Assembly (NCBI GenBank): GCA_025350965.1
Contig: JANXWV010000119.1
Coordinates: 36,077-100,076 of the forward strand
Direction of reading: 5' to 3'
Source: Rhizobacter sp.
GTDB lineage: Bacteria; Pseudomonadota; Gammaproteobacteria; Burkholderiales; Burkholderiaceae_C
Length of the DNA stretch: 64,000 nucleotides
The notes beneath the pieces were generated by a model that was given only the letters and a program-made list of their open reading frames with translations, was not told the origin of the DNA and made no database searches. Shown here in pieces: positions 1-14,690 of the stretch (position 1 is its first letter; every line of letters starts with the position of its first letter). Both the position numbers and the translations under genes were made by a program.

Positions 1-25
1 TGGCACCCGAACACCCTCACCCCCA

Positions 26-46
26 CCCTCTCCCAGAGGGAGAGGG
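26..46. repeat. Perfect hairpin of an interspersed REP-like repeat
   Basis: A 9-bp stem CCCTCTCCC and its exact complement GGGAGAGGG enclose a 3-base AGA loop, preceded by the C-rich run CACCCCCACC. From memory this CCCTCTCCC-AGA-GGGAGAGGG core is a common intergenic palindrome in Proteobacteria. It sits directly upstream of the first gene, whose reading frame is open through it to the window edge. Confidence 0.7.
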
Positions 47-73
47 AGTCACACCCGCCTCATCGCGACCTGC

Positions 74-661
74 TTGCTGGCATTCGCTTCCATATCCACC
101 GCGTGGAGCGCAGAGCCTGCACCAGCCGCTGTGGCCGTTGCCCCAGCCATCGCCGCCAGCGCGCCGGTCGCTGCCCTGGCCGCTCCCGCACCCGCCGCTG
201 CCGCGAGCGGCCCACCCGCCTCCCTGGACACCCGCATCCAGGACGTCAAGGGCGACGTGATCCGCCTGAACCGCGACCTTCTGGTGCTCGAAGAGGAACT
301 GCTGTTCCCGGCCAATACGCAGGTGGCGCTGTTCGTGTCGATGGACGTGGGCAAGATGTTCTCGCTCGACTCGGTGCAGATCAAACTCGACGACAAGCCC
401 GTCACCAACTACCTCTACACGCCGGCCGAAGTGAGCGCCTTGCACCGGGGCGGCGTGCAGCGCGTGTTCGTGGGCAACCTGAAGTCGGGCGAGCACACGA
501 TCGTGGCCTTCTTCACCGGCGGCGGCCCGCACGAGCGCGACTACAAGCGCGGCACCACGGTCAAGTTCGACAAGGGTGTGGAGCCCAAGTACATCGAGCT
601 GCAAATCAAGGACTCGATGGCCAAGCTGCAGCCCGAGTTCGACGTCAAGGTCTGGCAGTAA
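74..661 (+). CDS. Exported hypothetical protein, first visible gene of the TonB/Agl-like cluster
   Basis: I do not recognise the family. The protein has an Ala/Pro-rich segment after a signal peptide, then a compact domain of about 140 residues (from ...DVIRLNRDLLVLEEELLF to the end) that looks like a periplasmic beta-rich fold with FVSMDVG and YIELQIKDSM. The track start is a TTG at 74, but the hydrophobic signal-peptide core (LIATCLLAFASISTAWSA) begins upstream of it. The frame is open to the left edge through a hairpin repeat and contains no ATG or GTG, so the true start is unresolved. It lies 18 bp before the next gene and is co-directional with nine genes of an ExbB/ExbD/TonB-like system, which suggests a periplasmic accessory of that machine. 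That role is inference only. Confidence 0.75.
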   Translation: MLAFASISTAWSAEPAPAAVAVAPAIAASAPVAALAAPAPAAAASGPPASLDTRIQDVKGDVIRLNRDLLVLEEELLFPANTQVALFVSMDVGKMFSLDSVQIKLDDKPVTNYLYTPAEVSALHRGGVQRVFVGNLKSGEHTIVAFFTGGGPHERDYKRGTTVKFDKGVEPKYIELQIKDSMAKLQPEFDVKVWQ

Positions 662-679
662 GCCGTTGCGCTCACCCCG

Positions 680-2680
680 ATGAACGTGCGCCCTTTCACC
701 CTGATGCTGCTGCGGCAAGTAACCGTGGCCGCCGCGTGCATGGGCGCCATCGCGGCCCACGCTGCGGCGCCGGCAGCGCCCTTGGCAGATGCCCCCGCGA
801 GCCCCGTCAAAGACCCGCACTACGGCGACGCGCTGTTCCACTTCTACCAACCGCACTACTTCACCGCCTTGACCACGCTGATGGCCTCGCAGCAGCTCGG
901 CCGCGTGGCAAAGCATGCCGACGAAGCCGAGGTGCTGCGGGGTGGCCTGCTGCTGTCGTACGGCATGCATGTAGAAGCGGGGCAGCTCTTCACGCAACTC
1001 ATCGACAAGGGCGCGCCGCCTTCGGTGCGCGACCGTGCGTGGTACTTCCTCGCGAAGATCCGCTACCAGCGTGGCCTGCCGGCCGAAGCCCTTGCCGCGC
1101 TCGCGCGCATCGAAGCCAGCTTGCCGGCCGAGCTGGAAGACGACCGCCACCTGCTGCACGCCAACCTGCTGATGGGCAGCGGCGACTACGCGGGGGCGGC
1201 CACGGTGCTGAGCGCGATGACAGCGAACAAGGGCGGTTCGAACACCGGCTACTTCGGCTTCGGCAGGCGTGACGCCAACGCCACCGAGAAGAGTGCCGCT
1301 CGCCAGTACGCCGGCTTCAACCTCGGTGTGGCACTCATCAAGACCGGTGACCTCAGCGGTGGCACTGCCCTGCTCGACGAACTCGGCCGCGCCCCGGCCG
1401 CGTTCGAAGAGGCGCGCAGCCTGCGCGACCGGGCCAACGTGGCGCTGGGCTTCGCGGCGCTGCAAGCCAACCAACCCGAGCAGGCGCGCACCTTCCTCGA
1501 ACGCGTGCGCCTCGCGGGCCCGCAGTCGAACAAGGCCTTGCTCGGCTTCGGGTGGGCGGCCGCGAGCATGAAGAACGCGAAGCTCGCACTCGTGCCCTGG
1601 ACCGAACTCGCCGGCCGCGACGCGAGCGACGCCGCCGTGCTGGAAGCGCGCATCGCGCTGCCCTACGCCTACGCCGAACTCGGTGCGCAGGGCCAGTCGC
1701 TGGCCGGCTACAACGGCGCGATCAGCGACTTCGAGCGCGAGAACAGCGGCCTCGACGAGTCGATCAAATCGATCCGCAGCGGCAAGTTGATGAACGCGCT
1801 GCTCGCGCGCAACCCGGGCGAAGGCTCGGGCGAAGAGATGGGCTGGTTCTGGACAATGCGCGCGCTGCCCGACATGCCGCACGCGCCGCACCTGGCGCAG
1901 GTGCTCGCGAAGAACGAGTTCCAGGAGGCGTTCAAGAACTTCCGTGACCTGCGCTTCATGGCTGGCAACCTGCAGCAGTGGGCCGACAACCTGGGCGTGT
2001 TCAGCGACATGCTCGACGCCCGCCGCAAGGCCTACACCGAGCGCCTGCCGCAGGTGCTGGCGCGCGCCCGCGAAACCGGCATGACCGCAGCCAGCGAGCG
2101 CAGCGCCGGGCTCGCCAAGGAAGTGGCCGAGGCCGAACAGGCCGCCGACGGCGTGGCGCTGGCCGATACGAAGCAGCGCGATCTGATCGAGCGCCTGGCC
2201 GGCCTGCGCGCCGCGCAAGCCCAACCCGCGCCTGCCCCCGAGGTGGCTGCAATGAGCGAGCGCATGCGCCGCGTGGCGGGTGCCTTGACGTGGCAGTTGG
2301 CGCAGGAGTTCCCGGCCAAGGTGTGGGAGGCGAAGAAGGTGCTCGGCAGCATCGACTTGCAGCTCGCGCAAGCCAAGGCGCACGAGGCTGCACTCACGCA
2401 GGCACAGGTCGACGAGCCCGCGCGCTTCGAGCGCTTCGCCAAGCGCATTGCCGAATTGAAGCCGCGCCTGCAGGCGCTGATGCCGCGCATCGCCGCATTG
2501 GGTGGCGAGCAACAGCAAGCCGCGCAGGGCATTGCCGTGGCAGAACTGGCAAGCCAGAAGGAACGGCTTGCGCTGTACACCACGCAGGCGCGCTTCGCCG
2601 TTGCGCAGTTGGTGGACCGCGCGGTGACCCCACAAGCGCAGTCACAACCGCAGGAGGGCGACCGTGCTCGCAAGCCGTAA
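680..2680 (+). CDS. Exported TPR-like/coiled-coil protein
   Basis: The 666-residue protein has an N-terminal signal peptide (TVAAACMGAIAAHAAAPAAP) followed by helical repeats of TPR character (for example LLSYGMHVEAGQLFTQLI, ARQYAGFNLGVALIKTGDLSGG). Its C-terminal third is Ala/Glu/Gln-rich and probably coiled-coil. It is predicted to act in the periplasm as a scaffold. The next gene, a TPR lipoprotein, starts inside its 3' end (17-bp overlap), so the two are translationally coupled. Paired large TPR proteins next to ExbB/ExbD genes recall the TPR components of Myxococcus Agl/Glt-type complexes; this is an analogy, not a demonstrated homology. No enzyme motif is visible. The ATG at 680 lacks a convincing Shine-Dalgarno sequence. 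Confidence 0.85.
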   Translation: MNVRPFTLMLLRQVTVAAACMGAIAAHAAAPAAPLADAPASPVKDPHYGDALFHFYQPHYFTALTTLMASQQLGRVAKHADEAEVLRGGLLLSYGMHVEAGQLFTQLIDKGAPPSVRDRAWYFLAKIRYQRGLPAEALAALARIEASLPAELEDDRHLLHANLLMGSGDYAGAATVLSAMTANKGGSNTGYFGFGRRDANATEKSAARQYAGFNLGVALIKTGDLSGGTALLDELGRAPAAFEEARSLRDRANVALGFAALQANQPEQARTFLERVRLAGPQSNKALLGFGWAAASMKNAKLALVPWTELAGRDASDAAVLEARIALPYAYAELGAQGQSLAGYNGAISDFERENSGLDESIKSIRSGKLMNALLARNPGEGSGEEMGWFWTMRALPDMPHAPHLAQVLAKNEFQEAFKNFRDLRFMAGNLQQWADNLGVFSDMLDARRKAYTERLPQVLARARETGMTAASERSAGLAKEVAEAEQAADGVALADTKQRDLIERLAGLRAAQAQPAPAPEVAAMSERMRRVAGALTWQLAQEFPAKVWEAKKVLGSIDLQLAQAKAHEAALTQAQVDEPARFERFAKRIAELKPRLQALMPRIAALGGEQQQAAQGIAVAELASQKERLALYTTQARFAVAQLVDRAVTPQAQSQPQEGDRARKP

Positions 2681-5600
2681 TCACCGCCTTGCACGCCTGC
2701 CCGCCGCGCTGCTGCTGCTCGGCCTGTGCGCCTGCGGCAGCGGCAAGCTCAAGGGCACGCCCGACAACGAGCCGACGCTGAAGGCGCTGGCGAGCCGGCA
2801 GGTCAGCGTGCAAGCCGACGCGGGCGTCAAGGCCAGCGAAGAGCAGGCCATCGCCGCGTACAAGAAGTTCCTCGACGCGGCGCCGCGCGCACCGCAGCGC
2901 GCGCAGGCGATGCGCCGGCTCGGCGATCTGGAGATGGAAGTCGCCGAGAGCCGCTTCACCGATACGCCGGGTGCAACGCCGATGGCTGCCGCCGACTACC
3001 GCGCTGCCATTGCGCGCTACCGCGACTTCCTCAAGGCCTACCCCGCCGATGCGAACAACGACCGCGTGCTGTACCAGCTGGCCCGTGCGCATGAGCAGGG
3101 CGGCGCGCTCGAACTGGCGCTGGCCACACTCGACCAACTCGTGCGCGAGTACCCCGCCACCGTCTACCGCGACGAGGCCAACTTCCGCCGAGGCGAGCTG
3201 CTGTTCACGACCCGCGAGTACGCCAAGGCCGAGCAAGCCTTCGCCACGGTTCTGAAGAGCGAACGGCGCAACACCTACGAGGAACGTTCCCTCTACATGC
3301 AGGGGTGGTCGCAGTTCAAGCAAGGCCGGCTGGAAGACGCGCTGACGCCGTTCTTCGGCGTGCTCGACCGCAAGCTGGCCGGCCAGACCGGCAGCGGCGA
3401 GCTCGACACGCTGACCGGCAGACAAGGCTTCACGCGGGCCGACCGCGAGCTGGTCGAAGACACCTTCCGCGTTGCGAGCATCTGCCTGCAGAACCTGCAG
3501 GGCGCCGACTCGATTCCCCAGTTCATCACCAGCGAGGTGCGACGCGGCTACGAGTTCCGCGTGTACCAGCAGCTCGGGGAGCTGTACGTCAAGCAAGACC
3601 GCAGCAAGGACGCGGCCGACACCTTTGGCGCCTTCGCGCGCGCCCACCCGCTGCACGAGCAGGCGCCTCAGCTGCAAGCCCGCGTGGTCGAGATCTACCA
3701 GAGCGCGGGCCTCACCACGCTGGCACTTGCGGCGAAGAAGGACCACGTGTCGCGTTACGGCATCGACAGCGAGTTCCGCCGTGCCAACCCGGCCGGCTGG
3801 GCATTGGCGCAGCCGCTCGTGAAGACGCACCTCGCCGAGTTGGCGCGCCACCACCATGCGGCGGCGCAGAAGAGCCGCGCGAGTGCCGACTACCAGGAGG
3901 CGGTGCGCTGGTACCGCGCCTACCTCACGTCGTTCCCGAGCGACCCGGCTGCGGCGCAGAACAACTTCCTGCTCGCCGAGCTGCTGTTCGAAGACCAGCT
4001 CTTCAAGGAGGCTGCGGTCGAGTACGAGAAAACGGCCTATGGCTACCCGGTGCACGCCAAGAGCGCCGACGCAGGCTATGCGGCTTTGCTGTCGTATGCG
4101 CGCCTGACCAAGGATGCGGTCGCTGCTGACGCACCCGTGCTGCAGCGTTCGAGCGTTGACAGCGCCCTGCGCTTCGCCGCCGCCTTCAAGGCCGACACGC
4201 GCACCGGCACCGTGCTGACGAATGCCTCGGAGCAACTGTTCGCGCTGAAAGACCCGGCGCAGGCAGCCAAGATTGCGCAGCAGGTGCTGGCCCTCGACCC
4301 ACCCGCCGCAGCCGCGCAACGCCGCACCGCATGGACCGTGCTCGCGCACACCGCATTCGAGCGCAACGCCTTCGCCGATGCGGAACGCGCGTACGCCGAG
4401 GTGCTCGCGCTGGTGCCTGACAAAGACCCGGCACGCACGGAGTTCAAAGAGCGGCTGGCCGCGTCGGTCTACAAGCAGGGCGAAGAGGCACGCACGAAGG
4501 GCAACGCGCGTGACGCCGTCGGCCACTTCGCGCGCGTGGCGGCTGTCGCGCCGCAATCGAGCGTTCGCGCCACCGCCCAGTACGACGCGGCGGCCGCCCT
4601 CATCGGCTTGAAAGATTGGGACAACGCGGCCCGCACGCTCGAAGACTTCCGCGCCCGCTTTGCCAACCACCCGCTGCAGGACGATGTCGCCGCGAAGCTC
4701 GCGCTGGCCTACACCGAGCGCGGCCAGTGGTCGCAGGCCGCAGGTGAGTTCGAGCGGGTTGCAGCGGCGGCGAAGGACCCGCAGGTCGCACGCGCAGCGC
4801 TGTGGCAAGCGGCCGAGCTGCACGAAAAAGCCAGCGAGAAGGCCAGCGACAAACCCAACGAAAAAGGCGGCAACGCGGCCACCTCGCGCATGGCCGCGAC
4901 CAAGGCCTACGAGCGCTTCCTGAAGCTCTACCCCGAACCGCTGGAGCCAGCCGTCGAAACCCGCCACCGCCTGGCGCGGCTGGCCCGTGCCGATGGCAAC
5001 GCCGTGCGCGCGTTCGTGCTCGCCAAAGACATCTTCTTCGCCGACCAGGCCGGCGGCGCTGCCCGCACCGACCGCACCCGCTACCTCGGCGCCAGCGCCG
5101 CGCTGACGCTGGCCGAGCCGGTGCTCGCGAGCTACAAGCAGGTGCCGTTGATCGAGCCGCTGGCGAAGCAGTTGAAGCTGAAGAAGGCGAAGCTCGAGGA
5201 CGTGCTGAAGGCCTATGCCGTGGCGGCCGATTACGGCGTGGCCGACGTGACGACCGCCGCCACCTTCCACATCGCTGCGCTCTATCAAGACTTCGGCCAG
5301 GCCATGCTCGGCTCGCAGCGGCCGAAGAAGCTCAGCAAAGCCGAGCTGGAGCAATACAACGTGATGCTCGAAGAACAGGCCGATCCGTTCGCCCAGAAGG
5401 CCACCGAGCTGCACGAAGTGAATGCTCGCCGCGCCGCCACCGGCCTGTACGACGAGTGGGTGCAGAAAAGCTTCAAGGCTCTCGCCGCATTGCGCCCGCT
5501 GCGCTACGGCAAGGTGGAACGCATTGATCTGGCAAGCGCCCCGGCGGCACTGGCCGCGCCTGCCGACGCGAGCGTGGCCACGTTGGAAGCCGCCCTCGCG

Positions 5601-5906
5601 GCCAACCCGAAGCAGCCGCAACTCGCAAACCAGCTCGGCATTGCGTTGCGCAAGGCGGGCCAGTTCACGAAGGCGCGCGCGGCGTACGAGCGCGCCATCG
5701 AGCTCGACGCGAACCCTGCCAATGCGACGCTGAACCTCGCCATCCTTCACGACATTTACCTCGCTGACAGCGCCCGTGCGCTGGCCTTGTACGACCGCTA
5801 CCTCGCGCTCACCACGGGCGGTGACGCGATGGTTGCGAAGTGGGTCGCCGACCTCAAGAACCGCAAACCGCCAGCCACGTTGCTGAGCAAGAAGGACTCT
5901 TCATGA
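2664..5906 (+). CDS. Large TPR-repeat outer-membrane lipoprotein
   Basis: The 1080-residue protein starts with GTG at 2664 behind a good ribosome site (GGAGG). It has a type II signal peptide with lipobox LCAC, so Cys24 would be lipidated. Nearly the whole mature protein is tetratricopeptide repeats, with motifs such as AIARYRDFLKAYPADANNDRVL, ALATLDQLVREYPA and AYERAIELDANPANATLNLA. This resembles BamD/YbgF-like or Agl/Glt TPR lipoproteins. It is probably anchored in the outer membrane facing the periplasm, forming the docking scaffold of the ExbB/ExbD-driven machine encoded downstream. It overlaps the preceding gene by 17 bp and the following gene by 4 bp (ATGA). I cannot name a substrate. 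Confidence 0.9.
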   Translation: MLASRNHRLARLPAALLLLGLCACGSGKLKGTPDNEPTLKALASRQVSVQADAGVKASEEQAIAAYKKFLDAAPRAPQRAQAMRRLGDLEMEVAESRFTDTPGATPMAAADYRAAIARYRDFLKAYPADANNDRVLYQLARAHEQGGALELALATLDQLVREYPATVYRDEANFRRGELLFTTREYAKAEQAFATVLKSERRNTYEERSLYMQGWSQFKQGRLEDALTPFFGVLDRKLAGQTGSGELDTLTGRQGFTRADRELVEDTFRVASICLQNLQGADSIPQFITSEVRRGYEFRVYQQLGELYVKQDRSKDAADTFGAFARAHPLHEQAPQLQARVVEIYQSAGLTTLALAAKKDHVSRYGIDSEFRRANPAGWALAQPLVKTHLAELARHHHAAAQKSRASADYQEAVRWYRAYLTSFPSDPAAAQNNFLLAELLFEDQLFKEAAVEYEKTAYGYPVHAKSADAGYAALLSYARLTKDAVAADAPVLQRSSVDSALRFAAAFKADTRTGTVLTNASEQLFALKDPAQAAKIAQQVLALDPPAAAAQRRTAWTVLAHTAFERNAFADAERAYAEVLALVPDKDPARTEFKERLAASVYKQGEEARTKGNARDAVGHFARVAAVAPQSSVRATAQYDAAAALIGLKDWDNAARTLEDFRARFANHPLQDDVAAKLALAYTERGQWSQAAGEFERVAAAAKDPQVARAALWQAAELHEKASEKASDKPNEKGGNAATSRMAATKAYERFLKLYPEPLEPAVETRHRLARLARADGNAVRAFVLAKDIFFADQAGGAARTDRTRYLGASAALTLAEPVLASYKQVPLIEPLAKQLKLKKAKLEDVLKAYAVAADYGVADVTTAATFHIAALYQDFGQAMLGSQRPKKLSKAELEQYNVMLEEQADPFAQKATELHEVNARRAATGLYDEWVQKSFKALAALRPLRYGKVERIDLASAPAALAAPADASVATLEAALAANPKQPQLANQLGIALRKAGQFTKARAAYERAIELDANPANATLNLAILHDIYLADSARALALYDRYLALTTGGDAMVAKWVADLKNRKPPATLLSKKDSS

Positions 5907-6265
5907 AACCTTTCGTCTCGGCCGCCGCAGGCGCCTCGCTGGGCCTGATCGGCATGGTGCTGGTCGGCCTGGCCGTGCCGGTGGTGGCGCAGGACCGCGC
6001 CGACATCGACCGCTCGCAGATCATCGGCAACCGTGAGCTGCCCAAGGTGCTCTACATCGTGCCGTGGAAGAAGCCGTTGCCCGGCGAGCTGGCCGGCCGG
6101 CCCGTGGCGAGCGTGCTCGACGAAGCGCTGGCCCCCATCGACCGCGACGTGTTCCGCCGCCAGGTGCAGTACGGCGCGCAAGCCGCAGTGAAGCCCACTG
6201 CCGCCTCGCCCAACACGGCACCCAACGCCGCGCCGACCGTCACGGCAGCGGCGCAGCCCAAGTAG
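5903..6265 (+). CDS. Small exported protein of the TonB-like cluster
   Basis: The 120-residue product begins at ATG 5903, inside the stop of the upstream TPR gene (ATGA overlap), rather than at the track start 5840. It has a signal peptide ending near VVAQ, a conserved-looking core (DRSQIIGNRELPKVLYIVPW) and an Ala/Pro/Thr-rich low-complexity C-terminus. Function is unknown. Its position between the TPR lipoprotein and the ExbB-like channel, with tight coupling to the former, argues that it is a structural part of the same envelope complex. Confidence 0.85.
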   Translation: MKPFVSAAAGASLGLIGMVLVGLAVPVVAQDRADIDRSQIIGNRELPKVLYIVPWKKPLPGELAGRPVASVLDEALAPIDRDVFRRQVQYGAQAAVKPTAASPNTAPNAAPTVTAAAQPK

Positions 6266-6309
6266 CCACCCCGACACCCGACCCCGAGTTTTCACAGGAG
6301 AAATGTTCG

Positions 6310-6963
6310 ATGAATGCATTCAACACGGCGCTGAAGTTCTTCCAGGATTGCGGCCTGTTCATTTACCCCAGCATCCTCATCATGGCGCTGGGTGTGTCCA
6401 TCGCCATCGAGCGGCTGATCTTCCTGAACCGCGCTCGCAGCCAGAACCGCAAGGTCTGGGCGAAGGTGCTGCCGATGCTGCAAGGCGGGCAGTGGAAGGA
6501 AGTGCAAAGCGTGACCGCGAACTCCGACGCGGCCATCGGCCGAATCGTCAACTACGGTCTGACGCGCATGCAAAGCCCCGGCCGCCGCGAAGACTTCGAC
6601 GCCGCGATGGAAGAAGGCATGATGGAAGTGGTGCCGCGCCTTGAGAAGCGCACCCACTACATCGCGACCTTCGCCAACGTGATCACGCTGGTCGGCTTGC
6701 TCGGCACCATCATCGGCCTGATCAAGGGCTTCACGGCGGTGGCGCAAGTCAACCCGGCCGAGAAGGCCGAGCTGCTGTCGGCGTCGATCTCGATCGCGAT
6801 GAACAACACCGCGTTTGCACTGATGGTGGCGATTCCGTTCCTGCTCATCCATTCGTTCCTGCAGGCGCGCACGAGCGAGATCGTCGATGGCCTGGAGGCC
6901 GCGAAGATGAGCTTCCTGAACCTGGTTCAGCGCCTCAAGGCTGAACAGGCTGCGGTGCGCTAG
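6310..6963 (+). CDS. ExbB/TolQ/MotA-family proton channel protein
   Basis: The 217-residue inner-membrane protein starts at ATG 6310 after a strong CAGGAGAA ribosome site; the track ORF starts too early. It has the three-helix plan of ExbB/TolQ: TM1 at FIYPSILIMALGVSIAIERLIFL, a cytoplasmic loop, TM2 at FANVITLVGLLGTIIGLIKGF and TM3 at NNTAFALMVAIPFLLIHSFL. The GLLGTIIGLIKGF signature is characteristic of the MotA/TolQ/ExbB superfamily. Paired with two ExbD-like proteins it should form the proton-conducting stator that energises the TonB-like transducers downstream. The gene neighbourhood differs from the standard exbBD-tonB and tolQRAB-pal operons. Confidence 0.93.
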   Translation: MNAFNTALKFFQDCGLFIYPSILIMALGVSIAIERLIFLNRARSQNRKVWAKVLPMLQGGQWKEVQSVTANSDAAIGRIVNYGLTRMQSPGRREDFDAAMEEGMMEVVPRLEKRTHYIATFANVITLVGLLGTIIGLIKGFTAVAQVNPAEKAELLSASISIAMNNTAFALMVAIPFLLIHSFLQARTSEIVDGLEAAKMSFLNLVQRLKAEQAAVR

Positions 6964-6966
6964 ATC

Positions 6967-7512
6967 ATGCGCGTGCGTCGCCTGCGCAAGGAGCAGGCCC
7001 ACCTCGAGATCACCGCGTTCATCAACCTGATCGTGGTGCTGGTGCCCTTCCTGCTGTCGGTGGCGGTGTTCACGCGGCTGGCCGTCATCGACCTGTCGTT
7101 GCCGGCACAGACCTCGGGCGTCGAGCAGTTGAAGGCCGAAGACCTGAAGCTGGAAGTCGTGATCCGGCCCGACGCGCTGGAGGTGGGTGACCGCATCGGC
7201 GGCCTGATTCGCCGCATCGACAACACGCCGGCCGGCCATGACGTGAAAGCCTTGTCGAACCTGATGCAGCAGATCAAGGGCAAGTTCCCGGACCAGTTGG
7301 AGGCCACGCTCTTGGCGCAGCCCGACACGCCCTACGACACGCTGGTTCAGGTGATGGACGCGATGCGCGCCGGCATGTCGGCCGAGGGCACGAAGCTCGT
7401 GCGCACGGAGCTGTTTCCGAACATCTCGATCGGCGATGCGCCTTTGGTGAATACCGTGAATGCGGTGGCTGCGGCGAACCCGGTCAAGCCCATCACCGTG
7501 GCCAAGAAGTAA
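6967..7512 (+). CDS. ExbD/TolR-family protein, copy 1
   Basis: The 181-residue protein has one N-terminal membrane helix (INLIVVLVPFLLSVAVFTRLAV) after a short basic cytoplasmic segment, then a periplasmic domain. This is the ExbD/TolR plan. The usual membrane-helix aspartate (D-hxxLLxVFM) is not evident: the helix reads AFINLIVVLVPFLL, so this copy may be the non-proton-carrying partner. It starts 3 bp after the ExbB-like gene and 14 bp before a second, different ExbD gene. The periplasmic region includes MQQIKGKFPDQLEATLLAQPDTPYDTLVQVMDAMR, similar to ExbD C-terminal sequence. Confidence 0.9.
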   Translation: MRVRRLRKEQAHLEITAFINLIVVLVPFLLSVAVFTRLAVIDLSLPAQTSGVEQLKAEDLKLEVVIRPDALEVGDRIGGLIRRIDNTPAGHDVKALSNLMQQIKGKFPDQLEATLLAQPDTPYDTLVQVMDAMRAGMSAEGTKLVRTELFPNISIGDAPLVNTVNAVAAANPVKPITVAKK

Positions 7513-7526
7513 GAGGAACCCAAGCC

Positions 7527-8036
7527 ATGAAACTCACGCCGCGCCAGAAGCGCACCGAGAGGCGCTCGCGCAACCAGACCATGGTCGACATGAACCTGGT
7601 CTCGTTGATCGACGTGTTCACGATCCTGATCTTCTTCCTGCTCTCGAACTCGGGCGGCGTTGAAACGCTGCCGAGCCCGAAGGCGGTCAAGCTGCCCGAG
7701 TCGTTCGCGGTGGTCGCCCCACGCGACACGCTGGTGGTGGTGGTCAGCGGCACCGAGATCCTGGTCGACGGCCGCAAGGTGTCGTCGGTGCAAGACGCGA
7801 TGGCCGGGCCGGACGACCTGATCGCACCGCTGAAGGCCGAGCTCGACCTGCTGCAGACCCACCGCCAGGTCGTGCGCGCCGAGACCGTGGCGCAAAACGC
7901 CCCGTCCAACAAGGCCGTGACCATCATGGGCGACAAGGACATCCCCTACCAGTTGCTGCGCCGGGTGATGGCGACATGCGCCAAGGCGAACTTCAGCGAC
8001 GTGTCGTTCGCGGTGCGCCAAAGGGGTGAAGGGTGA
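7527..8036 (+). CDS. ExbD/TolR-family protein, copy 2
   Basis: The 169-residue protein is a canonical ExbD/TolR. The N-terminal helix DMNLVSLIDVFTILIFFLLSNSG carries the expected membrane aspartate (LIDVFTIL), the proton-carrying residue in this family. The periplasmic domain ends in KDIPYQLLRRVMATCAKANFSDVSFAV, matching the ExbD C-terminal signature. Two ExbD-type proteins per ExbB-type channel, as here, is the arrangement known for Myxococcus AglR-AglQ-AglS. The stop codon overlaps the GTG start of the AgmX/TonB-like gene by 4 bp, indicating coupled translation. Confidence 0.93.
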   Translation: MKLTPRQKRTERRSRNQTMVDMNLVSLIDVFTILIFFLLSNSGGVETLPSPKAVKLPESFAVVAPRDTLVVVVSGTEILVDGRKVSSVQDAMAGPDDLIAPLKAELDLLQTHRQVVRAETVAQNAPSNKAVTIMGDKDIPYQLLRRVMATCAKANFSDVSFAVRQRGEG

Positions 8037-9202
8037 GCGCGGGCATGGCGGCGTCGATGCTGCGCGTTTCGTTCCGCACGCCCACGCTGGCGTGGGCAGC
8101 GGCCCGCGACGACGAGGCGCGCTTCAACCGCATCACCGGTGCGGTGTTGGCGACCGCCACCCTGGCGTGCCTGTTGGTGCTGTTGCTGCCGGTCGTGCAA
8201 CCCGACCGCAGCGCACCCGCGCCGTTGCCACCGCGCTTGGCGAAGCTGCTGCTGGACCGCGTGGCGCCGCCGCTGCCACCACCGCCGGTGGCGAAGCCGC
8301 AGGCGCAGACGCAGACGCCAGCTCAGGCATCCAGTCAAGAAGCCATGCCGCAGGCACCGAAGCCGGCGGCCTTGAAAGCGCCGCCGAAGGACATGCCCAA
8401 GGCGCTCGCGCCCGAAGCCCGCGCGCCCGTGGCCAACAAGCCGCCGGGCGAGGTGCTCGACGGCATCCGCCGCAAGGCCTCGGGCGTGGGCCTGCTGGCG
8501 ATGCAGAACGAGATCGCCGAGCTGCGCGGTGCGCCGGTGGCGGTGCAGCTGCGCACCGACATCAAGCAAGGCGCCGGCGTGGGCAGCGGCGTGGGCCCCG
8601 GAGTGGGTGCGGGCAATGAAGCCGGCTTGCCGGCGCGCGCCATGATCACGTCGAACGCGGCCGGCGGCAGCGGCGGCATCAACACCGCGAGCTACAGCCG
8701 CAACACCGGCGGCGGCGGCCTGGCCGGGCGCGCGACCACGCTCGTCGAAGGCGTGGCGGGCGGCGGCGGTGGCGGAGGGGCGGGCGGTGGCGGCGCCAGC
8801 GGCAAAGGTGGCGACGGCACGGGCAACGGCGTTGGCGGGAATGGGACTGGAAATGGGACTGGAAACGGAAGCGGCAAGGGCGGCACACTGCAGCGCGGCG
8901 GCAGCGGCAAGGCCTCGCGCTCCATCGAAGAGATCAAGCTCGTATTCGAGCGCAACAAGGGCGCGATCTACGCGGTCTACAACCGCGCGCTGCGCGAAGA
9001 CCCTTCTCTGCAGGGCAAGGTGGTGGTGTCGCTCACCATCGCGCCGTCGGGCGGCATCGTCGATGTGCGCATCGTGTCGAGCGAACTGCGTGCCGCCGAG
9101 CTGGAGAGCAAGCTGCTCGCGCGCATCCGCCAGTTCGATTTCGGCCCCAAGGATGTGGACCAGATGATCGTCACGTGGCCGGTGGATTTCCTCCCCTCAT
9201 AG
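8033..9202 (+). CDS. AgmX/PglI-type energy transducer (TonB-like)
   Basis: The 389-residue protein starts at GTG 8033 (GTGA overlap with the ExbD gene). Domain order: cytoplasmic N-terminus (about 1-40), one membrane helix (AVLATATLACLLVLLLPVV), a Pro-rich then Gly-rich periplasmic spacer of about 220 residues, and a C-terminal domain of about 90 residues starting SIEEIKLVFERNKGAIYAVY. The C-terminus fits the AgmX/PglI C-terminal family found in gliding and adventurous-motility proteins. The spacer contains near-repetitive Gly codons around 8755-8880 (GGGGGGAGGGG, GNGTGNGTGNGSG). By position it is the periplasm-spanning rod moved by the ExbB/ExbD stator. Confidence 0.88.
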   Translation: MSAGMAASMLRVSFRTPTLAWAAARDDEARFNRITGAVLATATLACLLVLLLPVVQPDRSAPAPLPPRLAKLLLDRVAPPLPPPPVAKPQAQTQTPAQASSQEAMPQAPKPAALKAPPKDMPKALAPEARAPVANKPPGEVLDGIRRKASGVGLLAMQNEIAELRGAPVAVQLRTDIKQGAGVGSGVGPGVGAGNEAGLPARAMITSNAAGGSGGINTASYSRNTGGGGLAGRATTLVEGVAGGGGGGGAGGGGASGKGGDGTGNGVGGNGTGNGTGNGSGKGGTLQRGGSGKASRSIEEIKLVFERNKGAIYAVYNRALREDPSLQGKVVVSLTIAPSGGIVDVRIVSSELRAAELESKLLARIRQFDFGPKDVDQMIVTWPVDFLPS

Positions 9203-9253
9203 GGGGATGGACCAACCGTGCATCTCGTTACACTTTGAACCCATCCCCTTTTT
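9203..9253 (+). terminator. Possible weak intrinsic terminator or attenuator
   Basis: GGGGATGG directly after the AgmX-like stop pairs exactly with CCATCCCC 30 bases later, followed by TTTTTC. The loop is long, so this may be partial attenuation before the last TonB-C gene rather than a full stop. Confidence 0.3.
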
Positions 9254-9279
9254 CTTGCCAACCCTGCGGAGTGCCAGCC

Positions 9280-9735
9280 ATGATGATGAAACAAGGGCTC
9301 CTCGCAGCGTGGCTGGCAGCGTTGAGCGTGTGTTCGATGGCCGCCGAGTCGGTCTATCTGTCAGCGCCGCGCATGCCTTCGATGCAGCGCGTGTCCGCCG
9401 CCAACAACGAGCGCGAATACCGGCTCGACGCAGCCCGCCACTTCTATGACGCCTACTCCCCGCGCGTCTACAAGGGCCGCTTGCCGCCGTTGATCCACGC
9501 CGTGCTGGTGCTCGAGATGACGGTCGATGCGAACGGCGTGACGAAGTCCGTGCGCGTGGTGCGTGGCCCGTCGCACGCGCCCGAAGTGACCGCTGCGGTC
9601 ATCGAGATGATCAGCCGCGCCAGCCCGCTGCCCGTGCCCGCGAAGCTGGGCGATGAGGTGACCTACACCGAGATCTGGCTGGTCCACAAGGACGGCCGGT
9701 TCCAGCTCGATGCGCTGACCGAAGGACAGAACTGA
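9280..9735 (+). CDS. Exported TonB C-terminal domain protein
   Basis: The 151-residue protein is read from the first of three tandem ATG codons at 9280 behind GGAG; the track start at 9175 lies inside the previous gene. It has a signal peptide (LLAAWLAALSVCSMAAES). The mature part resembles a TonB C-terminal domain: LPPLIHAVLVLEMTVDANGVTKSVRVVRGPSHAPEVTAAVIEMI, followed by TEIWLVHKDGRFQLDAL. It lacks a membrane anchor and proline spacer, so it would be a free periplasmic TonB-box-binding-like domain, unusual for an energy transducer. Last gene of the cluster, 77 bp after the AgmX-like gene. Confidence 0.85.
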   Translation: MMMKQGLLAAWLAALSVCSMAAESVYLSAPRMPSMQRVSAANNEREYRLDAARHFYDAYSPRVYKGRLPPLIHAVLVLEMTVDANGVTKSVRVVRGPSHAPEVTAAVIEMISRASPLPVPAKLGDEVTYTEIWLVHKDGRFQLDALTEGQN

Positions 9736-9947: not shown

Positions 9948-10862
9948 TCAAGCGAAGCGCACCGATTCATCCGCCGCCCGCGCAATCGCGCCCGGCGTCG
10001 TGATCCACACATCCGCGCGCCGCGCTGCGATGTGCTTCAGCGCGCGGCGCAGGTGGCGCAGCCGGTACGGCTGGCCAACGATGTACGGATGCAGCGCCAG
10101 GCCCATCACCAGCGGCTGCGCAGCCGACTGTTCCAGCATCTCGTCGAACTGGTCGATCACCATCTGCGCGAAGGCTGCGCCGTCCATCAGCCGGCCCACG
10201 ATCATCGGGATGTCGTTCAGCTCCTGCGGGTACGGCACTGACCAGATCGCGCCGGCGCGGGTAGTCATGCGGGTGGGCTGGTCGTCGTGGCACCAGTTCA
10301 GCGTGTAGCTGAAGCCGGCCTCGTGCAACAGGTCGGGCGTGTGCACGCTCTCCGATATCCAGGGCGACAACCAACCTGCCGGCGCCACACCGTGCGCGCG
10401 CTCCATGCGCGCGCGGCAGTGGGTGATGAGGGCGCGTTCGTCGCCCTCGGTCAGGGTGCCCTGGCGCTCGGCGTTGGTGTGGCCGTGGGCGATGAGCTCG
10501 TCGCCGCGCTCGGCGAAGGCTTGCACGACTTCCGGGCAGTGGTCGTACAAGGCCGTGTTGACGATGGCACCCACCGGCAGTGCGAGCGCATCGAACAGGT
10601 CCAGGCAGCGCCACACACCCACGCGGTTGCCGTACTCGCGCCACGAATAGTTCAGCACGTCAGGCTGCGGTTGCGCCGGCGCGATGCCGGCGCCCAGGCC
10701 CTCGCCGAACGCGAAGTGTTCGAGGTTGAAGCCGATGTACACCGCCAGCCGCGCGCCCCCCGGCCACGCCAGCGCCGGCCGCGTGGTGATGGCCGAATAG
10801 CCGAAGCGGCCGTGCGTTCGCAACGGGCCGAAGGCGCCGGCAGGGCTGCTCGCTTCTGTCAT
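9948..10862 (-). CDS. PuuE-like polysaccharide deacetylase family (CE4) hydrolase
   Basis: The 304-residue cytoplasmic protein matches the CE4/NodB fold subfamily that includes the cofactor-independent allantoinase PuuE: WPGGARLAVYIGFNLEHF, YGNRVGVWRCLDLFDAL, an HGHTN segment, GWLSPWISESVHTPDLL and LALHPYIVGQPYR. The classical TxDD metal motif is replaced by NLEH, as expected for the PuuE branch. It is the last gene of a minus-strand unit (10 bp after the GntR gene) with a PotABCD-type importer and faces a hydantoin-type racemase. Hydrolysis of an imported cyclic ureide such as allantoin is therefore a reasonable inference; peptidoglycan or chitin deacetylation is unlikely without a signal peptide. 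Confidence 0.85.
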   Translation of the reverse strand: MTEASSPAGAFGPLRTHGRFGYSAITTRPALAWPGGARLAVYIGFNLEHFAFGEGLGAGIAPAQPQPDVLNYSWREYGNRVGVWRCLDLFDALALPVGAIVNTALYDHCPEVVQAFAERGDELIAHGHTNAERQGTLTEGDERALITHCRARMERAHGVAPAGWLSPWISESVHTPDLLHEAGFSYTLNWCHDDQPTRMTTRAGAIWSVPYPQELNDIPMIVGRLMDGAAFAQMVIDQFDEMLEQSAAQPLVMGLALHPYIVGQPYRLRHLRRALKHIAARRADVWITTPGAIARAADESVRFA

Positions 10863-10872
10863 GCCCGCACCA

Positions 10873-11595
10873 TCACGCGTGCTTGCGGTAGGCCTTGAAC
10901 ACGTCGCGCAGCGGCGTGGCTTCGGGCTGTGCCGGCCTGGTCAGCGAGTGTTCGATCTCGTTCAGGTGGCGGCGCATTTCCACGGCGGCCTGCGCGCCGG
11001 GCTTGGCGCCGAGCATGCCCAGCAACTTGCGGTGGCTGTGCGCCACGCACATCGGCTCGCCGGGCGCCTTGTACAGCGCCATCAGCAGCGACGTGGTCGG
11101 CAGCAGCTCTTCGAGCAGGCGCACGAAGATCGGGTTGCCGCTCATGTGAGCGAGTTGCAGGTGGAACTCGCCGGACAGGCGAATCGCCTCCTGCTTGTTC
11201 TGTGACTTGGTGGCGCGGTCTTCGGCGTCGACGATGGCCTGCAGCGCCCGCACCTGCTCGGCCGAGAGCCGGCCGGCCAGGCGGCGCACCACCTCGCACT
11301 CGACCACGCGGCGCGCGTCGAACACATGCTCGCCGTCGCGCCGCGTGGGCTCGGGCACCACGGCACCGCGGTTCGGCCGCAACGTGATGACGCCGTCTTG
11401 CGCGAGCTTGTGCAGGGCCTGGCGCACCAGCGTGCGCGACACCGCGAAGCTCTGCGCCAGCTCTTCTTCGCGCAGCCGCATGCCGGGGGGCAACCGGTGG
11501 TCGAGCACGGCTGCATAGACGGCGCCATAGACGCGGTCGGCCGCCCCGGCAGGGGCGGCAGGTGCAGCAGGTGCGGCGGTGGCGCGGGCCTTCAA
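10873..11595 (-). CDS. GntR-family (FadR/FCD subfamily) transcriptional regulator
   Basis: The 240-residue protein has an N-terminal winged helix (LREEELAQSFAVSRTLVRQALHKLAQDGVITLRPNRGAVV) and an all-helical C-terminal FCD effector domain (VFDARRVVECEVVRRLAG...GEFHLQLAHMSGNPIFVRLLEEL), with the Asp/His residues typical of metal-binding FCD domains. It lies between the ABC permease gene and the PuuE-like gene on the same strand. A perfect TTTGTATACAAA site in the divergent promoter at 15911 fits the TNGTNNNACNA core known for the FadR subfamily, so this protein probably represses the importer and racemase genes until its ligand, perhaps a ureide or hydantoin, is present. Confidence 0.92.
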   Translation of the reverse strand: MKARATAAPAAPAAPAGAADRVYGAVYAAVLDHRLPPGMRLREEELAQSFAVSRTLVRQALHKLAQDGVITLRPNRGAVVPEPTRRDGEHVFDARRVVECEVVRRLAGRLSAEQVRALQAIVDAEDRATKSQNKQEAIRLSGEFHLQLAHMSGNPIFVRLLEELLPTTSLLMALYKAPGEPMCVAHSHRKLLGMLGAKPGAQAAVEMRRHLNEIEHSLTRPAQPEATPLRDVFKAYRKHA

Positions 11596-11617
11596 TGCGC
11601 GGCGTCCATGCGCAGGT

Positions 11618-12508
11618 TCAGCGGCTCGCGCCGCCGCCTTTGCGGCCGAGCAGCTTCATCAACGCGAGCGTGCCGCCCATCACCGCGAACGACACCACGG
11701 TGGTCACGGTGCCCAGCGCGTAGATGGCAGGGTTGGTCACGGTGCTGGTGAGGCCCTGCAGTTCGAGCGGCAAGGTGTTGACGTCGCCGATGGCCTGCGA
11801 GGTGCGGGCGATCTCGTCCCAGCTGAGCGTGAAACCGAACATGCCCACGCCGACAAGGCTGGGCGCGATGAGTGGCAGCACCACATACCGAAAGCTCTGC
11901 CACGGTGTGGCGCCCAGGTCGGCGGCGGCTTCTTCGAACGCCGGGTTGAAGCGGTTGAACACCGCCAGCATGATGAGCAGGCCGAAGGGCAGCGTCCAGG
12001 TCAGGTGCGCGCCCAGGGCCGAGGTGTAGAGGCCCATCGCAGTGCCGTAGTTCTCGAGCAGGCTGCCCAGGCCCGCCGCGTCGAGCACGCTCTTCAGGCC
12101 GGTGTCGATCAGGCGGAACTGCAAGCCGATGCCGAGCGACACCACGATCGACGGCATGATCAGGCTCGCCACCGAGGTATAGAACAGCAACGCCGAGCCG
12201 GTGAACTTCTTGCGGAACGCCAGGCCCGCGCCCAGGCTGAGAAGCACCGTGAGCAGCATCACTACCGCGCCCAGCGCCACGGAACGGCGGAACGCAGCGG
12301 CAATGTCGACGACGCCCATGCCTTCCCAGAGCTTGCCGAACCAGTGCAGCGACACGCCACGCATCGGGAACGTCAGGCCACCTTCCGGGCCCTGGAAGCT
12401 GAGCACGAAGATCGTCAGCATCGGCCCATAGAGGAACAGCACGAAGGCTGCGAACACAGCCGCCAACGCATAGAAGCTGCGGGGACGTTTGCCTTCGTTC
12501 ATGGCCAT
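11618..12508 (-). CDS. ABC transporter permease, PotC type
   Basis: The 296-residue inner-membrane protein has about six helices (YALAAVFAAFVLFLYGPMLTIFVLSF at the N-terminus). The ATPase-docking EAA loop reads EAAADLGATPWQSFRYVVLPLIAPS. Sequence and order match the second permease of polyamine/opine-type (PotABCD) importers. It starts 7 bp after the stop of the partner permease. The substrate is more likely a nitrogenous ureide or hydantoin-like compound than a polyamine, judged from the racemase and PuuE-like neighbours. Confidence 0.93.
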   Translation of the reverse strand: MAMNEGKRPRSFYALAAVFAAFVLFLYGPMLTIFVLSFQGPEGGLTFPMRGVSLHWFGKLWEGMGVVDIAAAFRRSVALGAVVMLLTVLLSLGAGLAFRKKFTGSALLFYTSVASLIMPSIVVSLGIGLQFRLIDTGLKSVLDAAGLGSLLENYGTAMGLYTSALGAHLTWTLPFGLLIMLAVFNRFNPAFEEAAADLGATPWQSFRYVVLPLIAPSLVGVGMFGFTLSWDEIARTSQAIGDVNTLPLELQGLTSTVTNPAIYALGTVTTVVSFAVMGGTLALMKLLGRKGGGASR

Positions 12509-12515
12509 GTTTTGC

Positions 12516-13394
12516 CTACAACTCTTTGCGGATATCGACCAGCCGCGTCAGGCCGAAGATCATCATCAGCGTGATGAGCAGCAAGATCACCGCATTCGCT
12601 GCCGCCATCGGGAACTGCAGGTAGGACGTTTGCACCTGGATGATCTTGCCGACCGAGGCGATCTGCTGCCCGCCCATCACGCCGATGGTGACGAAGTCGC
12701 CCATCACGATGGTGATGACGAAGATCGAGCCGATGATGATGCCGGTGCGGCTGAGCGGCACGACCACGCTCCACACGGTTTGCCAGCCGCTTGCGCCGCA
12801 GTCGCGCGCGGCCTCGATCAGTGCGCGGTCGATGCGCATCATCGAGTTGAAGATCGGCACGATCATGAACATGGTGTACAGGTGCACGAAGGCCACCACG
12901 ACCGAGAAGTTGCTGAACAGCAGCCACTCGATCGGCGAGTCGATCAGCCCCGCGCCCATCAAGCCCTGGTTGATGACGCCGTTGCGCCCGAGCAGCGGCA
13001 CCCACGAGACCATGCGGATCACGTTGCTGGTCCAGAACGGCACGGTGCAGATGATGAAGAGCAGCGTCTGCGCGCCGACCGAGCGAATGTGGAAAGCGAG
13101 GAAGTACGCGACTGCAAAGCCGATCACCAGCGTGATGAGCCAGACGAGAAAGCAGAACTTGAACGTCGACAGGTAGGTCTTGAGCGTGACGCACATGTCG
13201 GCCGTGTTGGTGCAGCCGCTCCACACGTCGATGTAGTTCTGCAGGCTGAAGGCCGGGATCAGCTCGTAGTCGGTCGCCTTCCAGAAGCTCACCGCCGCGA
13301 CCAGCATGAGCGGCAGCACCAGGAAGACGAGGAACACGAGCGTGAACGGCGTGGCTTGCAGCCACGCACTCGCACCGGCAGGTTTGTGCTTCAC
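12516..13394 (-). CDS. ABC transporter permease, PotB type
   Basis: The 292-residue membrane protein begins with a cytoplasmic MKHKPAGAS tail and a first helix FTLVFLVFLVLPLMLVAAVSF. A periplasmic loop with several cysteines (SGCTNTADMCVTLKTYL) follows, then the remaining helices and the EAA loop EAARDCGASGWQTVWSVVVPLSR. It belongs to the PotB/BinA-like first permeases of the spermidine/putrescine-type importer class. It lies between the binding-protein gene (18 bp away) and the PotC-like gene, so it is part of one operon. Confidence 0.93.
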   Translation of the reverse strand: MKHKPAGASAWLQATPFTLVFLVFLVLPLMLVAAVSFWKATDYELIPAFSLQNYIDVWSGCTNTADMCVTLKTYLSTFKFCFLVWLITLVIGFAVAYFLAFHIRSVGAQTLLFIICTVPFWTSNVIRMVSWVPLLGRNGVINQGLMGAGLIDSPIEWLLFSNFSVVVAFVHLYTMFMIVPIFNSMMRIDRALIEAARDCGASGWQTVWSVVVPLSRTGIIIGSIFVITIVMGDFVTIGVMGGQQIASVGKIIQVQTSYLQFPMAAANAVILLLITLMMIFGLTRLVDIRKEL

Positions 13395-13412
13395 GCGCGC
13401 GCCCTCAACCCG

Positions 13413-14690
13413 TCAAGCTGCAACAAATTCGTTCCACTTTTGGACCATGTACGCGTTCTCGTCCATGATCGCATTCCAGCAGGCAATGCCGCCCATGCGG
13501 GCTTCGTAGCTGCCGCCGTCGCGCAGCGCGCCGGTCTTGGCCAGCACGTCGCCGCCCGGTGACTTGATGTCTTGCGACGCGGGCTTGCCTTCCATCCAGT
13601 AGGCCCACTCATAAGCTTCCATCTTGGCCTTGGCGGTCTCGAGCACGGCGCTGTAGTAGCCCTGGCGGTTCAGGTAGGCACCGGCCCAGCCGTCGAGGAA
13701 CCAGTTGATGAACTCGTACACGCCGTCCGCCTTCTTGCCGGTCACCGACTTCGGCACGCCGAAGCCCGCCGCCCACGCGCGGTAGCCTTCCTTCAGCGGC
13801 TGGAACGTGCAGGCGATGCCCTTGGTGCGCACCGCCGTCACGGCCGGTGACCACATCGACTGGATCACCACTTCGCCCGAGGCCATCAGGTTCACGCTCT
13901 CGTTGAAGTCTTTCCAGAGCGCACGGAACTGGCCGGCCTTCTTGGCTTCGATCAGCGTCTTGATGGTGAGGTCGATTTCCTTCTTGGTCATGTTCCCCTT
14001 GTCGGGGTACTTGTACAGGCCCGAGGCCTCGACGACCATGGCCGCGTCCATGATGCCGATGCTCGGGATGTTCAGGATCGCGGCCTTGCCTTTGAACTCG
14101 GGGTTCAGCAACTCCTTCCATGATTCGATCGGCCGCTTGATGAGGTCGGGGCGAATGCCCAGCGTGTCGGCGTTGTAGACGGTGGGGATCAGCGTCATGA
14201 ACTGCGTGGGCGTGGCGCTGAAGGTCTTCGAGTCGGGTTTGTCGAGGTACATGACCTTCTTCGGCGCGGTGCCCTGGTCGCCGACCTTCTTGCCGGCCAC
14301 TTCGCCCTTGGTGAACAGCGAGGTGATCTTGTCGGCGTTCTTGATGCGCTTGGTGTCGATGCCCAGCAGGTTGCCGGTCGGGATGATCTTCTTGAGGCTG
14401 AAGTACTCGGTGTCGATCAGGTCGAAGCTGTTCGGCGCCGTCACGGCGCGCTTGGTCACGTCATCGGTCGTGACCGGGATGTACTGGATCGTGATGCCCG
14501 TGTCGGCCTTGAACTTGTCGGCGATGGCCTTGTCCTGGTTCACGGCCGTGCCGAGGTAGCGCAGCGTGATCGGCTCGGCCGCCCGCACGAACGGGAAGGC
14601 CAGCGCGCCGGTGGCAGCGGCTGCGCCCTTGATGAGGCTGCGTCGGGAAGTTTGCTTCGGGGCCAATGGGTCGTTGAACGAGTCGGTCAT
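13413..14690 (-). CDS. Tat-exported PotD-type substrate-binding protein
   Basis: The 425-residue protein is started at ATG 14690 (MTDSFND), which has AGGAG at good spacing, rather than the GTG three codons upstream. It carries a twin-arginine signal (TSRRSLIKGAAAATGALAFPF), so it is probably exported folded. The mature protein is a type II periplasmic binding protein: ITLRYLGTAVNQDKAIADKFKADTGITIQYIP at the start, and W-rich ligand-pocket segments (ALWKDFNESVNLMASGEVVIQSMWSPAVTAVR). It delivers the ligand to the two downstream permeases. The actual ligand cannot be read from sequence; the neighbouring racemase and PuuE-like hydrolase point to a ureide. Confidence 0.93.
   Translation of the reverse strand: MTDSFNDPLAPKQTSRRSLIKGAAAATGALAFPFVRAAEPITLRYLGTAVNQDKAIADKFKADTGITIQYIPVTTDDVTKRAVTAPNSFDLIDTEYFSLKKIIPTGNLLGIDTKRIKNADKITSLFTKGEVAGKKVGDQGTAPKKVMYLDKPDSKTFSATPTQFMTLIPTVYNADTLGIRPDLIKRPIESWKELLNPEFKGKAAILNIPSIGIMDAAMVVEASGLYKYPDKGNMTKKEIDLTIKTLIEAKKAGQFRALWKDFNESVNLMASGEVVIQSMWSPAVTAVRTKGIACTFQPLKEGYRAWAAGFGVPKSVTGKKADGVYEFINWFLDGWAGAYLNRQGYYSAVLETAKAKMEAYEWAYWMEGKPASQDIKSPGGDVLAKTGALRDGGSYEARMGGIACWNAIMDENAYMVQKWNEFVAA

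Follow-up and report, generated by a model that had tools for sequence, protein, structure and literature searches.

An Agl/Glt-type gene set in Rhizobacter sp. and the outer-membrane redox gene block beside it

The window analysed here is a stretch of 64,000 nucleotides from contig JANXWV010000119.1 of Rhizobacter sp. (assembly GCA_025350965.1). Nine co-directional open reading frames occupy positions 74 to 9735 of its plus strand (Table 1), as the initial annotation had described, although it had also called them mostly overlapping. Overlap occurs at just three of the eight junctions, the remaining genes lying 3 to 77 bp apart, and the set is closely packed. Genes 1-8, which encode one ExbB channel, two ExbDs, a transducer with an AgmX/PglI domain, two TPR proteins and two small exported proteins, are kept together across Burkholderiales and Gammaproteobacteria in the related loci that are sufficiently long. 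Gene 9 had been counted in the same set as a free TonB-C protein: it is an exported protein whose TonB_C match is weak, and membership in the machine appears doubtful because no relative was found in the other 55 loci compared. Gene 3, used as a query against a plasmid collection, gave no match.

Table 1. Genes of the locus with their positions in the window; the upstream block lies outside it on the contig.
Feature	Position	Strand	Product and features
Gene 1	74..661	+	small exported protein; N-terminal helix and predicted Ig-like beta sandwich
Gene 2	680..2680	+	exported TPR protein, 666 aa; size of GltC (673 aa)
Gene 3	2664..5906	+	TPR protein, 1080 aa; lipobox by eye
Gene 4	5903..6265	+	small exported protein; conserved in cores; PKVLYIVPWK motif
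Gene 5	6310..6963	+	MotA/TolQ/ExbB-family channel, AglR-like; PF01618 MotA_ExbB, 89 bits
Gene 6	6967..7512	+	ExbD family (PF02472); membrane helix with Asn at the site of the proton-binding Asp
Gene 7	7527..8036	+	ExbD family (PF02472); membrane-helix Asp kept
Gene 8	8033..9202	+	transducer: one membrane helix without His; Pro-rich, then Gly-rich spacer; AgmX/PglI C-terminal domain
Gene 9	9280..9735	+	exported protein; weak TonB_C similarity, below every cut-off
Upstream block		same as core	ApbE; HZS-alpha-like heme lipoprotein; small CX4CH lipoprotein; two OMP_myx_plus barrels; TlpA; CxC lipoprotein; DUF3570 barrel

Neither of the small proteins of genes 1 and 4 matched a Pfam or NCBIfam family. 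Gene 1 is conserved in nearly every core among the related loci; its TTG start codon at position 74 is uncertain and abuts a repeat array, and comparison of its predicted structure gave no convincing match, the best TM being about 0.4. The description of genes 2 and 3 as two TPR proteins, one of them a lipoprotein, held for the repeats in both, the lipoprotein part depending on a lipobox recognised in gene 3 by eye. Gene 3 is a fusion in this genome: residues 1-955 are GltD-like by size and content and residues from about 960 to 1080 are GltE-like (37-39 bits with the GltE-type model NF033758, whose cut-off is 225), and the two parts are separate genes in most relatives.

Profile searches matched PF01618 once and PF02472 twice, in agreement with the one ExbB-type channel and two ExbD-type proteins of the initial annotation, and judged by these families the machine is a PMF-type motor. 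The ExbDs of genes 6 and 7 scored 50 and 53 bits, and two ExbD ORFs are present in 42 related loci. Across the loci, the membrane-helix Asp is constant in the ExbD of the gene 7 type, and in the gene 6 type its position is taken by Asn or Ser, with the single exception of L051. This differs from the Agl/Glt machine, for which AglQ and AglS are both stated to carry the membrane Asp (PMC9389320); the same paper calls it unknown whether these two form homo- or heterodimers. The locus offers a natural motor in which the usual proton binding would be possible in only one of two ExbDs, and so bears on how mixed-axle 5:2 motors work.

The C-terminal domain of the gene 8 transducer, which is TonB-like, passes the AgmX/PglI model NF033768 (61 bits, cut-off 40), confirming the earlier assignment, and a family profile search detected no FHA domain in the protein. 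The helix through which TonB and TolA bind their motors has the motif Ser-x-His-x-Leu-x-Ser (PMC12204202), whereas the conserved His is absent from the transducer membrane helix in 42 loci, an isolated His at its edge occurring only in L030 and L079. These residues bear on the idea that the set is a described TonB2/Ttp or Tol-Pal system. With Tol-Pal and ExbBD-TonB it has in common the ExbB/ExbD motor families, a TonB-like tip and, in a partner protein encoded upstream, a TolB-like propeller fold, and gene 3 scores above the cut-off of the YbgF TPR model (96 against 90 bits). However, gene 5 stays far from the cut-offs of the TolQ and ExbB equivalogs (53 of 221 and 33 of 206 bits, respectively), the composition differs, with two ExbDs of which one lacks the Asp and with tolB, pal and a receptor gene absent, and the motor-binding His is missing. 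On equivalog scores, composition and the transducer His we rejected a TonB/Tol system, which is hardly credible here.

The family assignments upheld instead the composition of Agl/Glt/Nfs machines, proposed from the outset as distinct from tol-pal or exbBD-tonB. This reading of the core is right but not new: the core had already been reported in non-gliding proteobacteria (Luciano 2011, PMC3169522). That paper describes a clustered core, of unknown function, made up of aglR, aglQ, aglS, gltC, gltD, gltE and gltG plus one extra gene, in bacteria that do not glide: several Gammaproteobacteria, a single betaproteobacterium and Geobacter. The window set has the same plan: one ExbB, two ExbDs, a transducer tipped with AgmX/PglI, three presumed TPR functions and one extra gene, all in a single cluster, gene 1, or possibly gene 4, being a candidate for the "additional gene". 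Myxococcus proteins were compared through NCBIfam models, protein size and TPR content rather than through M. xanthus sequences. By the models, the shared AgmX/PglI domain passes and the cut-offs of the full GltG (28 of 650 bits for gene 8), GltJ and GltE equivalogs are unreached; for GltC and GltD, the agreement is one of TPR content and size. Besides the Asn of gene 6, the window set departs from Agl/Glt in its transducer without FHA domain and in the fusion of GltD- and GltE-like parts, and its genome adds a redox block that the accessible text of PMC3169522 does not mention.

The statement that no receptor or motility gene lies adjacent was misleading: base 1 of the window falls inside a gene cluster. 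Upstream on the contig, on the same strand, seven further extracytoplasmic genes and apbE follow, and with such partner genes adjacent, the client of the motor is therefore not without clues. A simple scan found neither promoter nor terminator between the DUF3570 gene and gene 1. Profile scores in the block were 265 bits for ApbE (PF02424), 115 bits for DUF3570 (PF12094) and 119 bits for redoxin, and the CxC lipoprotein was assigned to the DUF4266 type from the CxC at its tail and its resemblance to standalone copies. The two barrels are mutually paralogous, match the NCBIfam model OMP_myx_plus and resemble GltA/GltB in size and layout, one having a longer N-terminal part. In Myxococcus, an outer-membrane subcomplex is formed by the interaction of GltA, GltB and GltC (PMC4488436), and two paralogous small barrels with a GltC-size TPR protein recur here; in contrast to GltA/GltB, one barrel bears an SH3 domain, and the likeness runs through the OMP_myx_plus model only. 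This adjacent barrel pair and the similarity of the components would suit a surface-motility machine like Agl-Glt. But the core, according to PMC3169522, occurs in bacteria without known gliding and was concluded to be insufficient for motility, the partner genes encode redox proteins, and an adhesin-like gene was not seen in the Burkholderiales block. We rejected gliding, a very improbable function for this set, on the non-gliding carriers and the redox partners.

Two known systems help in reading the block. Its HZS-alpha-like propeller protein has two or three c-heme motifs and was judged a lipoprotein by eye; full-length copies, whether from linked loci or from the unlinked blocks L092 and L097-L102, have two CXXCH motifs. 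The middle domain is PF18582 (71 bits), and the predicted model, of moderate confidence (pLDDT 60), had hydrazine synthase alpha as its first match in structure comparison, along its length, and TolB as the next. Against this likeness in middle domain and overall fold, the hydrazine synthase alpha equivalog NF052339 stays unreached (60 of 800 bits), the protein is apparently a lipoprotein, and hydrazine synthase beta or gamma subunit genes were not noticed nearby. The clusters of Meheust et al. 2021 (PMC8238504), whose function was left open, also join ApbE, DUF3570, a thioredoxin-like protein and a DUF4266-type CxC protein, and the main text of that paper mentions neither ExbB nor TPR. Unlike in those flavinylation clusters, the DUF3570 barrel of this genome has lost the Gly at both [ST]GA[ST] flavin sites (SNAS and TQAS, the final Ser being kept) and shares its locus with a motor, two barrels and the HZS-alpha-like heme protein; the standalone DUF3570 copies L085 and L087 retain two SGA[ST] sites.

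Among 398 Pseudomonadota genomes, 15 carry the core. The HZS-alpha-like heme protein (>300 bits) was found in 11 genomes, all of them core-bearing, and these 11 are also the ones with the full-length SH3-barrel (>200 bits), whereas none of the 383 genomes without core has either (hypergeometric 1.6e-18, phylogeny ignored); OMP_myx_plus above 140 bits picked out the same 11 of the 80 genomes tested. The order HZS-alpha-like protein, SH3-barrel, barrel, TlpA, DUF4266-type protein, DUF3570, genes 1-8 is kept, with tight spacing, in Burkholderiales, in Hahella and in six other gammaproteobacterial loci. Core and block are both present but unlinked in G203 (107 kb apart) and in the genomes of L048, L052, L053, L055 and L050; in G203 and the genome of L052, apbE adjoins the core and the redox block lies elsewhere. 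Genomes G043, G082, G160 and G344 and three Marinobacter have the core without the redox block, and the core must therefore have another job or other clients. In a tree built without testing, the linked cores do not form a single clade. Cores without a block would also be expected if the core did a general envelope or polysaccharide job and the redox block were merely co-regulated, and Agl-Nfs indeed acts on a surface polysaccharide, the spore coat (PMC3858216). Nevertheless, the block never occurs without the core in the 398 genomes, even when the two are unlinked, and gene order is conserved across Beta- and Gammaproteobacteria, which makes shared regulation by itself quite unlikely.

Starting from the gene content, conserved order, co-occurrence and motifs, we infer a physical coupling of motor and block, with a direction of force and a redox role. 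Genes 1-8 probably constitute an Agl/Glt-type trans-envelope machine whose client is the upstream outer-membrane redox module. Protons would drive a motor in the inner membrane, made of ExbB and two dissimilar ExbDs, the transducer with its TonB-like tip would span the periplasm, and the TPR proteins would act as scaffolds at the outer membrane. The client would consist of the two OMP_myx_plus barrels, the DUF3570 barrel, the HZS-alpha-like and small heme-motif lipoproteins, TlpA, the CxC lipoprotein and ApbE. Most likely the work of the motor at the outer membrane would be to assemble, position or cycle these redox proteins, by which electrons or a redox reaction may reach the cell surface. 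Together, these data suggest work on outer-membrane barrels and heme redox proteins rather than movement, here and in relatives. The degenerate DUF3570 flavin-attachment motif in this genome counts against such a client, as do the cores without block, the linked cores that are not one clade and the pLDDT of the HZS-alpha-like model.

The outer-membrane barrels of the block and the TonB-like transducer tip could also belong to an uptake motor, in which DUF3570 or the small barrels would form a gated pore, the tip would pull as TonB does, and the heme, flavin and thiol proteins would reduce an incoming cargo, e.g., a metal; some DUF3570 clusters sit with an iron transporter (PMC8238504). We consider uptake fairly unlikely, since no TonB-dependent receptor is found among the block genes, the barrels being OMP_myx_plus-like and not receptor-like, and since the transducer has no conserved membrane His of the TonB/TolA type. 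For the redox-module client, a tentative possibility is a mechanically driven redox machine, whose proton motor would move or gate barrels and heme (possibly flavin) proteins, turning PMF into mechanical work on surface electron transfer or redox catalysis. Such redox use may have been among the original functions of the Glt core, predating its recruitment for gliding and sporulation. What the Agl/Glt core does outside Myxococcota had been left open in 2011 (PMC3169522); the union of this core with the DUF3570 cluster into a single gene set, seen in many Beta- and Gammaproteobacteria, provides each with a concrete and testable partner.

Two loci needed separate treatment. L038, a candidate Burkholderiales core without block, was rejected as such: a scaffold gap with N runs interrupts it, and the block adjoining gene 1 is found elsewhere in the assembly. 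L050, a candidate member of another phylum, has match coordinates identical to those of the Pseudomonadota set and was not counted as such.

The nine open reading frames of the initial annotation, all on the + strand within 74-9735, were borne out by an ORF check of the window. Pfam and NCBIfam assigned gene 5 to MotA_ExbB, genes 6 and 7 to ExbD and genes 2 and 3 to TPR families, and recovered the AgmX/PglI C-terminal domain in gene 8 (NF033768, 61 bits versus a cut-off of 40); gene 9 matched TonB_C below threshold and genes 1 and 4 matched no family in these two collections. This genome, a draft of 88% completeness with eight MotA/ExbB-family places in all, encodes gene 3 as a fusion; most relatives split residues 1-955 and about 960-1080 over two genes. 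The solved structures closest to the gene 5 family are TolQ and ExbB, and the gene 1 model (pLDDT 77) presents an Ig-like sandwich plus a helix, for which structural comparison gave no clear relative.

On L009, the window's own contig, the cluster runs on upstream past the window edge, on the same strand, with a set of genes called here the redox block (see table; lipoboxes and signal peptides were assigned by eye). Its second barrel scores 144 bits against the NCBIfam model OMP_myx_plus, above the cut-off of 60; 15/15 members of this barrel's family and 11/11 members of the SH3-barrel family match the model. An hhalign comparison shows the two families to be paralogues (probability 97%, E 7e-10). 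The DUF3570 barrel is followed by a 275-base stretch holding 33-base repeats, in which a simple scan gave neither promoter nor terminator, and then by gene 1, whose start codon is uncertain because the repeat array adjoins it.

Features of the redox block, its surroundings and related loci (L009:12078 = window base 1)
Feature	Location	Strand
apbE	L009:3807-4859	+ (as gene 1)
HZS-alpha-domain lipoprotein, about 990 aa	L009:4907-7873	+ (as gene 1)
Small lipoprotein with CX4CH motif	L009: about 7870-8511	+ (as gene 1)
SH3-domain barrel	L009:8496-9287	+ (as gene 1)
Second barrel	L009:9324-9956	+ (as gene 1)
TlpA/ResA-like thioredoxin	L009:9983-10510	+ (as gene 1)
Short lipoprotein, C-terminal CGCN	L009:10507-10761	+ (as gene 1)
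DUF3570 barrel	L009:10763-11875	+ (as gene 1)
Array of 33-base repeats, CCCTCTCCCTCTGGGAGAGG type, inverted copies included	L009:11922-12128 (overlaps window 1-51)	
Gene 6	window 6967-7512	+
Polysaccharide-deacetylase-type enzyme, GntR-type regulator, polyamine-type ABC transporter (by eye)	window 9948-14699	-
Gammaproteobacterial far-side genes: cytochrome with weak DUF1585 similarity; LamG-plus-cytochrome lipoprotein; Tat-signal protein	L104-L108; L050:1806-7239	divergent
Standalone TlpA-DUF4266-DUF3570-ApbE cluster (locus L085), window's genome	G000:C113:1-8531	

We compared 35 related loci and 20 regions from other genomes, annotated by iterated profiles. Across the Burkholderiales, where the initial annotation had suggested comparing gene order, every sufficiently long locus shares one order, with overlapping or short junctions throughout: HZS-alpha-like, (small lipoprotein), SH3-barrel, barrel, TlpA, CxC lipoprotein, DUF3570, genes 1-8. 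Locus L038, the sole candidate exception, was rejected as an assembly artefact, since runs of N break the cluster in this MAG 'chromosome'. Hahella and six other gammaproteobacterial loci keep the order minus the small lipoprotein, and gammaproteobacterial loci carry three divergent genes past the heme gene, on its far side. The DUF1585-like cytochrome occurs in 13 genomes, each carrying the block, and in 0/3 Burkholderiales genomes tested. Within the genome collection, locus L050 behaves like a member of Pseudomonadota although it is titled Verrucomicrobiaceae; the title is probably wrong.

Using the gene 3 profile to detect the core (genes 1-8) in a single even draw of 398 Pseudomonadota genomes, we found it in 15 genomes (18 loci). 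DUF3570 was present in 29, 12 of these with the core, and lay within about 6 kb of it at 9 of the 18 core loci. The HZS-alpha-like protein (>300 bits) and the full-length SH3-barrel (>200 bits) were found in the identical 11 genomes, all with the core, an overlap whose chance probability is 1.6e-18 with relatedness ignored; they span 11 genera and five family labels. OMP_myx_plus (>140 bits) marked the same 11 among 80 genomes tested, 65 of them without the core. Linkage alone is insufficient for this co-occurrence because the block is unlinked in several genomes: core and block are separated by 107 kb in G203, and the L048, L052, L053, L055 and L050 genomes have the block on a different contig, in some other place or in opposite orientation. 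The core stands without the block in G043, G082, G160, G344 and three Marinobacter genomes, while G197, G325 and G350 have two core copies, one alone and the other beside block genes (which in G197 lack DUF3570), a duplication reminiscent of Glt/Nfs specialisation. The pattern, core without block included, therefore gives the direction of dependence: the block depends on the core and the core does not depend on the block. The linked loci do not all group in the core tree (FastTree, midpoint root, branches without support test), a result that fits either an ancient association with repeated loss or else recurrent gain.

Motor residues were read by eye from an alignment of 42 loci, in two of which (L031 and L034) the gene order is swapped. 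The gene 7-type ExbD has a constant membrane Asp; at this site the gene 6-type has Asn in 39, Ser in 2 and Asp only in L051, unlike M. xanthus AglQ and AglS, both said to carry Asp (PMC9389320), where aglQ D28N abolishes function (PMC3858216). In the window's gene 6, Asn replaces the proton-binding Asp and is kept in nearly all relatives. In TolA and TonB, a Ser-x-His-x-Leu-x-Ser motif mediates motor binding (PMC12204202), whereas no conserved His was found in the transducer helix across the 42 loci.

Two CXXCH motifs are retained in the HZS-alpha-like proteins, and those of Burkholderiales have a third motif, CX2-3CH, close to the C-terminus. In the first survey, a pair of shorter and divergent matches (L050 and L082) had no CXXCH inside the matched part; the L050 genome carries two in its full-length copy. 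Structurally, the model (pLDDT 60) matches 5c2v, hydrazine synthase alpha, across 961 columns (E 7e-23) and, next, TolB propellers (E 6e-9); at sequence level the 5c2v match covers the middle domain only. In block DUF3570 proteins the first site reads SNAS, SSAS or SGAS, the second is mostly T-x-AS, and the final Ser is kept. Given the published flavinylation rule, [S/T]GA[S/T] (PMC8238504), flavinylation here is uncertain despite the nearby apbE, which in most block genomes adjoins the block, lies within about 12 kb of it or adjoins the core. Each of the standalone DUF3570 copies compared, L085 and L087, has a pair of SGA[ST] sites; L085, a second cluster in the window's genome, has both SGAT flavin motifs intact.

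From the observed composition, order, co-occurrence and motifs of core and block, we infer how motor, barrels and heme lipoproteins might be linked. A mixed ExbD axle in the proton motor would drive the transducer, whose tip would use the TPR proteins to act on the pair of barrels and on DUF3570, so that heme lipoproteins would be assembled, positioned or cycled at the outer membrane; TlpA and the CxC protein would handle thiols and ApbE would possibly load flavin. GltA and GltB are paralogous outer membrane barrels forming a subcomplex with GltC (PMC4488436).

A search with subscription papers mostly outside its reach found no literature linking the Agl/Glt core with DUF3570 clusters. Luciano 2011 (PMC3169522) describes the clustered core in non-gliding bacteria and leaves its function open, and Wartel 2013 considers the core a basal transport machinery. 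Full texts searched for DUF3570 or DUF4266 yielded only Meheust 2021 (PMC8238504), which describes DUF3570, CxC and thioredoxin clusters, leaves their function open, and mentions neither ExbB nor TPR in its main text. The minus-strand genes of the window listed in the table are apparently unrelated to the machine.
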